Positions 53,274 through 57,302 of a stretch of 64,000 nt of DNA are shown piece after piece. The translations under genes were made by a program, and so were the position numbers. Origin of the DNA: Bradyrhizobium sp. CCBAU 53340 (GTDB taxonomy: Bacteria > Pseudomonadota > Alphaproteobacteria > Rhizobiales > Xanthobacteraceae); contig NZ_CP030055.1 of the NCBI RefSeq assembly GCF_015291645.1, positions 3,348,001-3,412,000 on the forward strand. The letters are read 5' to 3'. How positions within the stretch are numbered: the stretch's first letter is position 1; each line of letters opens with the position of its first letter. The notes under the pieces are model-generated. The model saw only the letters and a program-made list of their open reading frames with translations. It was not told the origin of the DNA and searched no databases.

Positions 53274-53759
53274 ATGAAGCTCAGCGATATCGCCGACAAC
53301 GCCGGCTCGCGCAAGAAGCGCATGCGCGTCGGCCGTGGCATCGGTTCGGGCAAGGGCAAGCAGTCCGGCCGCGGCGGCAAGGGCCAGACCGCGCGCTCGG
53401 GCGTGCGCATCAAGGGTTTCGAAGGCGGCCAGATGCCGATGCATCGCCGTCTGCCCAAGCGCGGCTTCAACAACATCTTCCGCGTCGAGTACGCCGAGAT
53501 CAATCTCGACCGTCTCCAGGATGCGGTGGATGCCAAGAAGCTCGACACCGGCAGCGTCGTGAACGTCGAGGCCCTGGTGAAGGCCGGCGTGCTGCGCCGC
53601 GCCAAGGCCGGCCTGCGGCTGCTCGGCCGCGGCGAGCTCAAGGCCAAGCTCAACATCGAGGTGCACGGCGCCACCAAGTCTGCGATCGAAGCGGTCGAGA
53701 AGGCCGGCGGTTCGGTGAAGATCCTCGCCCCTGCCAAGGAAGAAGGCGAGGCGGCGTAA
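53274..53759 (+). CDS. rplO: 50S ribosomal protein L15
   Basis: The 161-residue protein has the Gly/Lys-rich N-terminal loop [53 protein letters not shown] (about 13-65) and a C-terminal domain ([25 protein letters not shown]). L15 binds 23S rRNA in late assembly. A terminator-like hairpin follows, ahead of secY. Confidence 0.97.
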
Positions 53760-53772
53760 CAACTGCGTCATT

Positions 53773-53794
53773 GGCCCGCGCCTCGCGGGCCTTT
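53773..53794 (+). terminator. Terminator-like hairpin between rplO and secY
   Basis: GGCCCGCG (53773-53780), a CCT loop, CGCGGGCC (53784-53791) and TTT form a strong stem with a short T-run. It could end part of the spc transcription so that secY is made at a lower level. The remaining gap to 53909 shows no gene. Confidence 0.65.
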
Positions 53795-53908
53795 ACGCAT
53801 GCGGGACGTGGACTTATCGAAGCCGAAGCCCCAGATAATGTCCGGCGTCCGCTAGATTAGCCCGGCCGCGGGTATGACGGCGCAAAAGGCGGCGGGAGAA
53901 AGTCCAAT

Positions 53909-55240
53909 ATGGCCTCAGCAGCGGAACAACTGGCAGCCAATCTCAATTTCGGCGCGTTTGCCAAGGCCGACGAACTGAAGAAGCGCATCTGGTTCACCCT
54001 GGGTGCGCTGCTCGTTTATCGGCTCGGAACCTACATCCCGCTGCCCGGCATCGATCCCAACATCTGGGAGCAGGTGTTCAAGTCGCAGGCAGGCGGCATC
54101 CTCGGCATGTTCAACATGTTCGCCGGCGGTGGCATCCACCGCATGGCGATCTTCGCGCTGAACATCATGCCGTACATCTCGGCCTCGATCATCATCCAGC
54201 TCCTGACCACCGTCTCGCCGCAGCTCGAGGCGCTGAAGAAGGAAGGCGAGGCGGGCCGCAAGACGCTGAACCAATACACCCGCTATCTGACGGTGATCCT
54301 GGCCGCGTTCCAGTCCTACGGCATCGCGGTTGGCCTTGAAGGCGCCGGCAATGTCGTCAGCGACCCCGGCATGTTCTTCCGTCTTTCCACCGCGATCACG
54401 CTGACCGGCGGCACCATGTTCCTGATGTGGCTGGGTGAGCAGATCACCTCGCGCGGCATCGGCAACGGTATCTCGCTGATCATTCTCTCCGGCATCGTCG
54501 CCGAGCTGCCGGCTGCGCTCGCCAACATGCTCGAGCTCGGTCGTCAGGGCGCGATGTCGACCGGTCTGATCCTGGTCGTCATCGTGATGGCGGTCGCGGT
54601 GATCGCCTTCATCGTGTTCATGGAGCGTGCCCAGCGCCGGCTGCTGATCCAGTATCCGAAGCGCCAGGTCGGCAACAAGATGTTCGAGGGCCAGTCCTCG
54701 CATCTGCCGCTCAAGCTCAACACCTCGGGCGTGATCCCGCCGATCTTCGCGTCCTCGCTGCTGCTGCTGCCGACCACGGTCGCGAACTTCAATGCGGGCA
54801 AGGGGCCGGAATGGTTCCAGTGGATCACGACCCAGCTCGGCCACGGCCGTCCGCTGTTCCTGATTCTCTATCTGGCGCTAATCGTGTTCTTCGCCTTCTT
54901 CTACACCGCGATCGTGTTCAATCCGACCGAGACCGCGGACAATCTGAAGAAGCACGGCGGCTTCATCCCGGGCATCCGCCCCGGCGAGCGCACCGCCGAA
55001 TATATCGACTACGTGCTGTCGCGCATCACCGTGCTGGGCGCGATCTATCTGGCGATCGTCTGCTTGATTCCGGAAATCCTGATCTCCTATGCCTCGGTGC
55101 CGTTCTACTTCGGCGGCACCTCGCTGCTGATCGTGGTCAGCGTCACCATGGACACGGTGGCGCAGGTGCAGGGCTATCTGCTCGCCCACCAGTATGAAGG
55201 CCTGATCCGCAAGTCGAAGCTGCGCGGCCGCCGTAGATGA
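53909..55240 (+). CDS. secY: Preprotein translocase subunit SecY
   Basis: The 443-residue protein has the ten-helix SecY layout. Residues 48-79 form the plug region (WEQVFKSQAGGILGMFNMFAGGG). The C4 loop has ERAQRRLLIQYPKRQ (239-253), and the C5 loop FIPGIRPGERTAEYID includes Arg357, the position needed for SecA-driven export in E. coli. A basic C-terminal tail follows ([17 protein letters not shown]). It forms the inner-membrane channel with SecE and SecG. It is complete and ordinary. The last four bases overlap the next gene, a second SecY-like protein. Confidence 0.98.
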   Translation: MASAAEQLAANLNFGAFAKADELKKRIWFTLGALLVYRLGTYIPLPGIDPNIWEQVFKSQAGGILGMFNMFAGGGIHRMAIFALNIMPYISASIIIQLLTTVSPQLEALKKEGEAGRKTLNQYTRYLTVILAAFQSYGIAVGLEGAGNVVSDPGMFFRLSTAITLTGGTMFLMWLGEQITSRGIGNGISLIILSGIVAELPAALANMLELGRQGAMSTGLILVVIVMAVAVIAFIVFMERAQRRLLIQYPKRQVGNKMFEGQSSHLPLKLNTSGVIPPIFASSLLLLPTTVANFNAGKGPEWFQWITTQLGHGRPLFLILYLALIVFFAFFYTAIVFNPTETADNLKKHGGFIPGIRPGERTAEYIDYVLSRITVLGAIYLAIVCLIPEILISYASVPFYFGGTSLLIVVSVTMDTVAQVQGYLLAHQYEGLIRKSKLRGRRR

Positions 55241-56439
55241 ACATGGAGCTTGCGCGCCGGATCGCTTTCACGATTGGCGCGCTACTCCTGTTCAGACTCG
55301 GCACCCACATCCCCGTACCCGGTGTGGTGCCGTCGACGCAGCCGCTCACGGCGGGACTCGTTGCCCGCCTCTCGCTTTTCGCCCTCGGTCTCGTTCCCTA
55401 TCTCAGTGCCGCGATCCTGGTCCGGCTGCTGGCGGTGGTCTGGCGCGGCTTGAGCGCGATCGAACGATCGGGCGAGGCAGGCCGGCGGCGGATCGCTCGC
55501 ATCACGCTCGCTGTGACGTTCGTCCTCGCCACGTTCCAGGCCTATGGCATTGCCTCGGCCCTCAAGGACATCCCAAATCTGGTCAGCGACCCCGACGGCT
55601 GGTTCGTGGTTACGGTCACCGCGACCCTGGTCGGTGGGGTGTTCGTGCTGATCTTCCTCAGCGAGCAGATCACCCGCCATGGCGTCGGCAATGGTCTCGC
55701 GCTGGTGCTGAGCGTCGGCTTCCTTGTGGCGTTGCCGACTGATGTCTCAAACGGCATCGAGCTGATGCGAAACGGCTCGGTCTCCAGCAATCTCGTGCTG
55801 TTCCACGTCGCGTTCTGGATCGCCGCGGTCGTGCTCATGGTCGTTGGCGAAAGCGCGCGGCGAAACATCGGGATTGAATTTGCCGAGCGTAGCGTGGGGC
55901 CGCGCATCCTGGCGGCGCGGCGGGCGGTGCTCCCGGTCAAGTTGAACAGCGCGGGCTTCCTGATACCGACCGCGGTGGCACCCTGGTTCATCTTCCTGCC
56001 GCTGACCGCTGCAGGCCTCCTGCTTGGCGGCGCCCCTTGGATCGAGGGCGTCTACCAATCCCTCCAGGTCGGGCGGCCCGCCCATCTGATCGCGATCTCG
56101 ATCGCCGTGTTCGTGCTGGCGTTCGTCTATACCTCCCATGTGGTCGATCCCGCAGAGGTCGCCGAGCAGCTTGCCAAGCACGGCGGCGCGATTCCCGGCG
56201 TCGCGCCGGGTGAGGCCACGGCGGACCATCTCGATCGCGTCGTGTCATTGACGACCGTCCTCGGAGCCGTCTACCTGACGCTGGTGCAGATGATTCCGGA
56301 AGCACTCTTGGTTTACGGAAACGGGCTGCCCTATAGTATGAGCGGTGGTGCGGCGCTGATCGTGGTTTGCACCATTCTCGATCTTCAAACACAGGTGCGC
56401 GACGTATCGCTCACCAATCCGGGGGGCGTACGCCGATGA
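55237..56439 (+). CDS. Divergent second SecY-like protein
   Basis: The 400-residue protein aligns with the preceding SecY from its first helix ([23 protein letters not shown] against RRIWFTLGALLVYRLGTYIPLPG-like sequence) to its tenth. It keeps ten hydrophobic segments, [20 protein letters not shown] and AKHGGAIPG. Differences from SecY are marked. The N-terminus is 18 residues shorter, the plug region is about 16 residues shorter (30-45 against 48-79), the Arg357 position is Ala323 (GVAPGE), and the basic C-terminal tail is absent. The start ATG overlaps the secY stop (ATGA) and its own stop overlaps adk the same way, so all three are coupled. It may be a regulator, partner or specialised channel; that is inference. 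Confidence 0.88.
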
Positions 56440-57302
56440 GAATTATACTTCTGGGACCGCCAGGATCGGGCAAGGGGACCCAAGCGCAGCTGCTGGTGCA
56501 GCGCTATGGCATCGTCCAGCTCTCGACCGGCGAAATGTTGCGTGCAGCTGTTGCGGCCGGAACGCCGGTCGGACTGAAGGCCAAGGAGATCATGGCCAGC
56601 GGCGGTCTCGTCCCTGACGATGTCGTGGTCGGAATCATCTCCGACCGCATCGACCAGCCGGACGCCAAGCATGGCTTCATCCTGGATGGCTTCCCCCGCA
56701 CCGTGCCGCAGGCCGAGGCGCTGGACGAATTGCTGAAGCACAAGCACATGAAGCTCGACGCCGTGATCGAGCTTCGCGTCAACGAGAGCGCGTTGCTGAG
56801 CCGTGTCGAGACCCGTGTCGCCCAGATGCGGGAGCGCGGGGAGGAAGTCCGGCTCGACGACACTCCGGAGGTCCTGACCAAGCGGCTCGCCAGCTACCGC
56901 AGCCAGACGGAACCGCTGATTCACTATTATTCCGAGCGTCGGAAGCTCTCGACCATTGACGGCATGATGGCCATCGACGAGGTCACCCGTGCCATCCACC
57001 GCCAGCTCCTGGCGCTTGGTGCGGTCGAGCCCAAGACCCATGCCAAGACCGCGGCCAAGACGGCCTCCGTCAAAAAGGCGGCCAAAAAGGTCAAATCCGC
57101 CAAGAAACCGGCGAAAGCAGCCAAAAAGGCCGCCAAATCGGCCAAATCCGCCAAAAAGGCCGTGAAAGGCGCCAAAAAGGCAGCCAAGAAGCCGGCCAGG
57201 AAAACGGCCAAGAAAACGGCTAAAAAGACCGCCAAGAAGGCCCTCAAAAAGGGTGCCAGAAAAGCCGCAAAAAAGGTCACGAAAAAGCGAGCTAAGCGCT
57301 AG
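56436..57302 (+). CDS. adk: Adenylate kinase with lysine/alanine-rich C-terminal tail
   Basis: Residues 1 to about 195 are a complete short-LID adenylate kinase: P-loop GPPGSGKGT (7-15), AMP-site [14 protein letters not shown] (84-89), and the short lid [23 protein letters not shown]. It interconverts AMP, ADP and ATP. Residues 200-288 are a separate basic tail with 37 Lys and 4 Arg in 89 positions and no acidic residue, made of AAKK, TAKK and SAKK units, like histone H1 tails. Many of its lysines use AAA, while nearby ribosomal genes use mostly AAG. The start overlaps the upstream SecY-like stop. No frameshift is needed. Confidence 0.95.

Follow-up and report, generated by a model that had tools for sequence, protein, structure and literature searches.

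A tandem SecY paralogue lacking Arg357 and with a shortened plug lies between secY and adk in Bradyrhizobium

RESULTS

A second SecY-like gene lies between secY and adk

We analyzed a 64,000-nucleotide (nt) stretch of the Bradyrhizobium sp. CCBAU 53340 genome (contig NZ_CP030055.1, positions 3,348,001 to 3,412,000 of the forward strand), here called the window, in which a SecY paralogue is encoded between the canonical secY gene and adk (Table 1). An original prediction, made from the DNA letters alone, had described the gene as a SecY relative joined to both neighbors by ATGA overlaps, and both overlaps are present in the sequence. The protein scores 210.4 bits against the Pfam SecY family PF00344, above the cut-off of 32.2, and 214.7 bits against the NCBIfam SecY equivalog TIGR00967, under its cut-off of 253.6. 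On the latter model, a plug-bearing relative from a groundwater metagenome-assembled genome (L126) scores 262.9 bits. At an E-value of 0.001 or less, PF00344 has two matches in the whole genome: canonical SecY and the paralogue. The paralogue belongs to the SecY superfamily and departs from canonical SecY in three tests, falling under the equivalog cut-off and lacking both Arg357 and the canonical plug. Open-licence PMC literature on duplicated secY genes, whether of Bradyrhizobium, of Alphaproteobacteria, or of other bacteria, yielded no report of the paralogue among the papers listed. A sigma-70 consensus scan of positions 53700 to 56600, which alphaproteobacterial promoters may escape, found no promoter (shuffled sequences gave a mean of 0.5).

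Table 1. Features of the secY-adk region and related loci (window positions unless a locus or genome is named)
Feature	Position	Strand	Basis or remark
Tandem SecY paralogue, 400 aa (amino acids)	55237..56439	+	ATG start, no internal stop; SecY fold predicted
Canonical secY, 443 aa	53909..55240	+	TIGR00967 433.7 bits (cut-off 253.6); R357 and 30-residue plug segment
ATGA shared by secY stop and paralogue start	55237..55240	+	Sequence
adk	56436..57302	+	ATG overlaps paralogue stop as ATGA, 56436-56439
Shortened plug segment, codons G29-R44	55321..55368	+	Alignment to E. coli SecY
One-residue insertion relative to SecY at start of transmembrane helix 7 (TM7; lateral gate), codons F241-L242	55957..55962	+	Alignment
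Codon W250, where SecY has S282 (TM7 lateral gate)	55984..55986	+	Alignment
Codon A323, SecY R357 position, C5 loop	56203..56205	+	Alignment
DNA-conserved stretch, last ~90 nt of paralogue before adk	56346..56435	+	Synonymous drop, base conservation, scars
SecE, PF00584	20147..20311 (G000:C1:3368147-3368311)	+	Genome's only match over family cut-off
~277-nt allele between secY and adk	L066:1469-1745, L077:1469-1745, 16 similar loci		
SecA-like gene between HlyD-like and M50-peptidase/HlyD-like genes	L088:5255-12302		Neighbors read from open reading frames by eye

Arg357 is lost throughout the paralogues and the plug in some of them

For residue comparisons, 36 paralogues and 41 canonical SecYs were aligned and numbered by E. 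coli SecY; the canonical rows are a chosen set and no survey, and the 36 paralogues overlap with a second set of 42 Bradyrhizobium copies. About 16 plug-region residues had been predicted to be missing. Indeed, the interval from G43 to R74 holds 14 residues in the paralogue versus 30 in the window SecY and in E. coli. The alignment also confirms Ala323 at the Arg357 position. Arg357 is kept in all 41 canonical SecYs, whereas all 36 paralogues have Ala, Glu, Pro, Met, or Thr there. In the second set of 42, Ala stands at this position in 36 copies, Met in 2, and Val, Thr, Pro, and Glu in 1 each, with Arg in none.

The plug segment is 28 to 31 residues long in 20/36 paralogues and 12 to 22 in the other 16. 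L126, which branches off before all other Bradyrhizobium copies in the tree, combines a 30-residue plug with Glu at position 357. Because 20 paralogues without Arg357 still have a full-length plug, as does L126, Arg357 appears to have been lost before the plug. Plug shortening is found in separate branches (Bradyrhizobium, P0174, and P0175), with P0122 (22 residues) and L034 (20 residues) intermediate, and the alignment suggests that plug loss and gate changes arose in more than one branch. A strict rule pairing Glu with a plug and Ala with its absence was rejected: L034 has Glu with its 20-residue plug, and several plug-bearing rows have Ala.

The C-terminal basic tail is absent, also as predicted: 8 residues follow E. 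coli position 425 in 40/41 plugless Bradyrhizobium paralogues and 7 in the remaining one, against 14 to 22 in the 41 canonical SecYs. A further claim, that most of the C4 charge pattern is gone, held in part. K250 is replaced by Glu, but the positions of R251, R256, and K268 are still basic (R217, R223, and K235), and the C4 region also contains R208/R209 and R228/R229.

Comparison of the 41 plugless Bradyrhizobium paralogues with 19 plug-bearing paralogue rows revealed changes shared across the clade: S282 to Trp in 54/60, N338 to Asp in 56/60, and Q241 to Arg and I191 to Leu in 58/60 each. The C2 residues K106 and E108 are likewise altered clade-wide. Positions invariant in canonical SecYs are retained at 59% in the plugless set and 68% in the plug-bearing set. 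All 42 Bradyrhizobium copies retain K268 and N270 and have hydrophobic residues at pore-ring positions 82, 86, 187, 191, and 408.

The paralogue is predicted to keep the SecY fold; most of its pore ring is hydrophobic, and its cytosolic loops are about as long as those of SecY. The modeled plug region contains only a short helix (residues 39 to 44), whereas a control AlphaFold2 model of canonical SecY has helices at residues 50 to 59 and 64 to 71.

Intact copies are under purifying selection

The original prediction took the clean frame as evidence against a pseudogene. The frame is intact, and the ratio of nonsynonymous to synonymous divergence (dN/dS, Nei-Gojobori method) among 42 Bradyrhizobium copies (861 pairs) has a median of 0.352 for the paralogue, compared with 0.062 for secY and 0.085 for adk. 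The highest pair value is 0.54 and none is 1 or more; the relaxed selection (dN/dS near 1) named in the prediction as a counterargument is not seen. The values from 16 loci (120 pairs) that overlap with these copies are 0.35, 0.06, and 0.07, respectively. In simple neutral simulations (300 runs each), a stop-free frame persisted in 4% of runs at 0.3 substitutions per site and in 0% at 0.4. Intact Bradyrhizobium copies are under purifying selection. A secY pseudogene is ruled out for these copies and accepted for many of the relatives described below.

Within the protein, constraint is strongest in TM4 and TM8, where pN/pS is 0.28; the P1/plug loop reaches 0.81. Only the last eight codons exceed the plug loop (pN/pS 2.2), because synonymous change collapses there. 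Synonymous divergence is about 0.4 to 0.55 in most regions, 0.27 in TM1, 0.31 in TM9, 0.208 in TM10, and 0.062 in the last eight codons. Similarly, base conservation among full-length copies is 0.87 to 0.93 in the last ~90 nt, versus 0.68 to 0.74 further upstream. The rise over the last ~90 nt is also seen in gene remnants, and shorter scars keep the last ~50 to 60 nt. At the 3' end of the paralogue, conservation is in part that of the DNA itself, and the synonymous drop together with base conservation suggests that an adk initiation or regulatory element lies within the end of the paralogue.

The paralogue is present, reduced, or deleted across Bradyrhizobium

Among 60 Bradyrhizobium genomes, that of CCBAU 53340 included, 59 have a secY match and 15 a full-length paralogue, at 56 to 100% identity. 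The secY-adk stretch in the 59 genomes is a full gene in 15, a remnant with a gap of 239 to 531 nt in 17, and a short gap of 68 to 128 nt in 27; a direct secY/adk overlap was found in none of them. A motif from the paralogue end occurs in 24/27 short gaps with at most 5 mismatches in 22 positions, and in the other 3 with 6, while only 1/2573 random 80-nt windows reached 5 or fewer. These matches suggest that the short gaps are scars and that the genus ancestor most likely carried the paralogue gene. Ten extra Bradyrhizobium genomes from wider samples comprise 1 full, 6 remnant, and 3 scar loci.

Outside the genus, 26 loci, which were top hits or follow-ups and no random sample, comprise 22 direct secY/adk overlaps, 3 full paralogues, and 1 remnant. 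In a family survey of 149 genomes from 47 genera, full-length neighbors outside Bradyrhizobium were found, among the matches listed, in G193, G069, and G085. In G193, the paralogue frame stops 15 nt before adk; the G085 protein bears a protein-database name of Variibacter gotjawalensis. Eight genomes outside the genus have two SecY matches among those listed, and all eight were inspected; G327, G501, G514, G352, and G533 have a second SecY match elsewhere in the genome.

A scan of named loci, which overlaps the genus survey, recovered at least 58 (57 Bradyrhizobium and 1 Bradyrhizobiaceae) from the 80 pattern matches listed and gives no prevalence estimate. A full-length paralogue frame is present in 41/58 loci among the matches listed, B. 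yuanmingense CCBAU 10071 (L111) being one example; in the other 17 the gene is interrupted, truncated, or almost entirely missing. All 41 overlap adk, and 27 of them overlap secY, the other 14 starting 3 to 22 nt past its end. Forty-one full-length frames in the same place among the 58 loci listed, with dN/dS well under 1, confirm that the open reading frame is beyond chance.

In all 17 non-intact loci listed, the longest frame near adk (33 to 206 codons) ends in an ATGA overlap, in a search restricted to adk-proximal stops. In 29/30 scar-type loci, a frame of 13 to 31 codons ends a few bases from the adk start, a result indistinguishable from chance; the idea that adk starts in scar genomes without any upstream frame was dropped, since such frames can be read there. 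L135 (4266-4886) has a 206-codon frame that keeps both overlaps, an apparent in-frame shortened paralogue. In L133 (3001-4211; B. niftali), the paralogue stretch is of full length but contains no full-length frame. The full or not-full state changes 12 times on a secY+adk tree.

A recurrent short allele replaces the gene in many genomes

The survey and extra sets contain 23 Bradyrhizobium remnants, 20 of them with gaps of 230 to 300 nt. Eighteen of these 20 are one form of ~277 nt (270 to 290 nt); L155 and L163 differ. The allele consists of ~130 nt of hairpin-rich sequence followed by the last ~150 nt of the paralogue. Comparison of the first ~130 nt with full-length stretches gave no clear homology, only three short chance-like matches. 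Neither an Rfam family nor a dispersed repeat explains the allele: no Rfam match was found in 17 loci at E-values up to 0.5, and a search of seven genomes with one example gave strong matches at the secY-adk locus and three weak ones elsewhere (E = 0.003 to 0.01). RNAalifold pairs 17 positions, 6 with changes on both sides; the covariation term is only -0.33 kcal/mol, so no conserved RNA is claimed.

On the secY+adk tree, 17 of the 18 ~277-nt loci do not form one clade (approximately unbiased test, P = 2.6e-7; L069 was too short and was left out), and neither do 16 full copies (P = 0.0005). Such scatter would be explicable by recombination at the locus or by two alleles having coexisted for a long time; the flanking genes may themselves undergo recombination.

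The paralogues form one clade within the family's SecYs

In a tree of the 36 paralogues and 41 canonical SecYs, built in quick mode and containing long branches, the paralogues form one clade (Shimodaira-Hasegawa-like approximate likelihood ratio support, 100) nested inside the SecYs of the family. When L126 and four very divergent SecY-like proteins are included, support is 87 for the 37 paralogues alone and 99 for the paralogues with those four. The exact attachment point is unsure because the branches are long. The tree check proposed with the original prediction shows one clade spanning several genera; within Bradyrhizobium the gene is patchy. The topology is most likely explained by a single tandem duplication of secY within the family that holds Bradyrhizobium, followed by many losses, and the paralogue is probably older than the genus.

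The four divergent proteins are encoded in other Rhizobiales and are 348 to 394 residues long (L189:5043-6122, plus strand; L190:4131-5177, minus; L191:4546-5730, plus; L192:4432-5508, minus). All four have a shortened plug and lack most of C4 and C5, three of the four match Pfam SecY, and none lies beside secY. They resemble the tandem paralogue in being SecY related, by Pfam in those three, and in their shortened plug. Unlike it, they are unlinked to secY, have lost most of C4/C5, and sit on very long branches; their kinship with the tandem clade is unsure.

The genome has one SecE over the cut-off, one SecG, and a distant second SecA-like gene

Besides the single SecE over the cut-off, the genome has two weak SecE matches (E = 0.2 and 0.7) and one SecG, although divergent small proteins could escape such searches. 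The original prediction saw no SecA2. That holds for the window, but a second SecA-like gene (671 aa) lies ~2 Mb from the paralogue. A SecA-like gene of such strength occurs in 8/64 genomes searched: 5/16 Bradyrhizobium genomes with an intact paralogue, 0/3 other-genus genomes with a paralogue, and 3/45 Bradyrhizobium genomes without an intact one (the 45 include G041, where secY was not found). Its co-occurrence with the intact paralogue in Bradyrhizobium (5/16 against 3/45) has a Fisher P value of 0.024, uncorrected for kinship. The second SecA is not a general partner of the paralogue. One assembly contains two equal-scoring canonical-type SecA matches (G029:C21 and G029:C28), possibly an assembly or contamination effect.

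The SecY2 equivalog models TIGR02920 and NF009082 score the paralogue at 110.9 and 92.5 bits, under their cut-offs of 353 and 249.6. The paralogue is like the accessory SecY2 of Gram-positive bacteria in being a second SecY beside the normal one and in its weak profile similarity. It is unlike SecY2 in lying in tandem with secY in the ribosomal operon without SecA2 in the window, and no second SecE or SecG over the cut-off is found in the genome. In Streptococcus gordonii, Asp4 and Asp5 take the SecE and SecG parts (PMC5076819).

DISCUSSION

In its predicted fold and its operon position the paralogue resembles canonical SecY. It also shares the helices of the lateral gate and most of the hydrophobic pore ring, and its C4 and C5 loops are about as long. 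It differs in the missing Arg357, a plug segment shorter by 16 residues, an extra residue in TM7, Trp in place of S282, and the absent basic tail, as well as in its faster evolution and its reduction or deletion in most surveyed relatives. Laboratory work offers parallels. The R357E substitution holds the plug shut though SecA binding persists, and the authors propose that it breaks an allosteric path from the SecA ATPase to the plug (PMC6021171). R357E does not prevent ribosomes from opening the channel in planar bilayers (PMC3689939). The prlA4 changes in TM7 and TM10 partly override a damaged RPG motif in C5 (PMC4826270), the prl allele S282R moves the lateral gate towards its open state (PMC8256087), and plug deletions are tolerated, a plugless proto-SecY being deemed plausible (PMC8675477). 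The paralogue combines a changed C5 with plug and TM7 changes and in this resembles the prlA4-EDP pair, whose activity is partly rescued by prlA4 (PMC4826270). Unlike the laboratory mutants (R357E/RPG, prlA, and plug deletions), it is natural, stands beside an intact SecY, and carries different substitutions.

From these sequence features, we tentatively favor, short of calling it probable, the reading that the paralogue is an auxiliary channel or insertase that shares SecE, is uncoupled from SecA, and is constitutively unlocked. Arg357 appears to have been lost first, with the Bradyrhizobium branch later losing the plug and changing the lateral gate. The protein would assemble with the cell's only SecE and SecG as an auxiliary translocon that SecA could not gate normally and in which plug opening would no longer be needed. 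Such a translocon might be a channel or insertase served by the ribosome or YidC for a subset of membrane proteins. Coupled translation from secY would set its dose, and an adk initiation region within its 3' end would shape what remains after deletion. A SecA-independent channel was among the readings offered in the original prediction, beside a SecY-modifying partner and a decaying paralogue; SecA uncoupling gains weight because Arg357 is lost in every paralogue examined, while the function itself is a matter of interpretation. That the paralogue would be a natural plug-free protein-conducting channel, opening without the SecA plug-coupling switch, is a serious but doubtful possibility.

Several points weigh against an auxiliary channel or insertase. 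The dN/dS of the paralogue exceeds that of secY about five- to sixfold, the estimates carry no codon-bias correction, and 44/59 genus genomes have no intact copy but just a truncated stretch or a short gap. Pore-ring position 278 in TM7 is Thr in 40/42 copies; the register there is uncertain because of the nearby one-residue insertion. When R357E is part of a triple change of the C5 RPG motif, SecY is nearly inactive and its binding of SecA is more than 10 times weaker (PMC4826270), and earlier biochemistry cited in PMC3689939 found ribosome binding impaired by R357E. The weak SecA binding and the ribosome-binding defect imply that loss of Arg357 may cost more than plug gating. The open-like lean of the structural prediction comes from one paralogue model and one control, and it is weak because the top Foldseek match by E-value is the resting Thermus SecY 5aww; the control shares the top matches, and the model was rejected as proof of an open channel. 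Further, the state of L189 to L192 hints that proteins descended from SecY can abandon translocase function entirely.

We consider it unlikely, while giving it appreciable weight, that the paralogue is a decaying duplicate kept mainly for coupled translation of adk, with selection acting on the open frame and the adk initiation region. The number of genomes without an intact copy fits such decay, as do the fall in synonymous divergence through TM10 into the last eight codons, the persistence of adk-proximal sequence in remnants and scars, and the ATGA-ending frame in every non-intact named locus listed; the short frames beside adk in scars also fit but are too short to be told apart from chance. 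A conduit, however, needs no conserved amino acids, yet intact copies have low dN/dS with strongest constraint in TM4 and TM8, and the derived residues W282, R241, D338, and L191 are shared across the clade. Scar genomes with secY and adk 68 to 128 nt apart also argue that adk manages without a long coupled frame. The original prediction's decaying but still coupled paralogue is at odds with the selection on intact copies and agrees with the shortening or loss in most of the genus. Less likely again is a nonconducting partner or regulator of SecY that would pair with SecYEG or compete for SecE, SecG, SecA, or ribosomes and so tune the translocon. The overlap with secY would fix the ratio of the two proteins if translation is coupled, SecE and SecG are each single in the genome (SecE over its cut-off), and clade-wide changes affect K106 and E108 in C2 and R357 in C5; SecY-like proteins without most of C4/C5 also exist in other Rhizobiales. 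A pure decoy has no obvious need for most of the hydrophobic pore ring and for K268 and N270, all of which are kept.

An accessory SecA2-SecY2-like system driven by the second SecA-like protein is very improbable. The enrichment of the SecA-like gene among genomes with intact copies speaks for it, but the gene is absent from 11/16 intact Bradyrhizobium genomes and from all 3 other-genus genomes, and its neighbors, read by eye, are HlyD-like and M50-peptidase-like frames. With both SecY2 scores below their cut-offs and the SecA-like gene distant and inconsistent, membership of a SecA2-SecY2 system was rejected.

If the paralogue conducts or inserts proteins, nature would have supplied a functioning equivalent of the laboratory C5-prl suppressor pair, and the proposal of an ancestral SecY without a plug (PMC8675477) could be examined in a living system. 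In any case, a multigenus clade without Arg357 beside an intact SecY, under purifying selection in Bradyrhizobium, makes comparative tests possible: what Arg357 does beyond plug gating, and whether a plugless SecY can stay tight and still insert proteins. The locus also offers a gene within a highly conserved operon that has been duplicated, has diverged, and has been repeatedly deleted or replaced in one genus, leaving a readable scar before adk. The neighboring adk product has a Lys/Ala-rich C-terminal tail of ~80 residues that by eye resembles histone H1 repeats.

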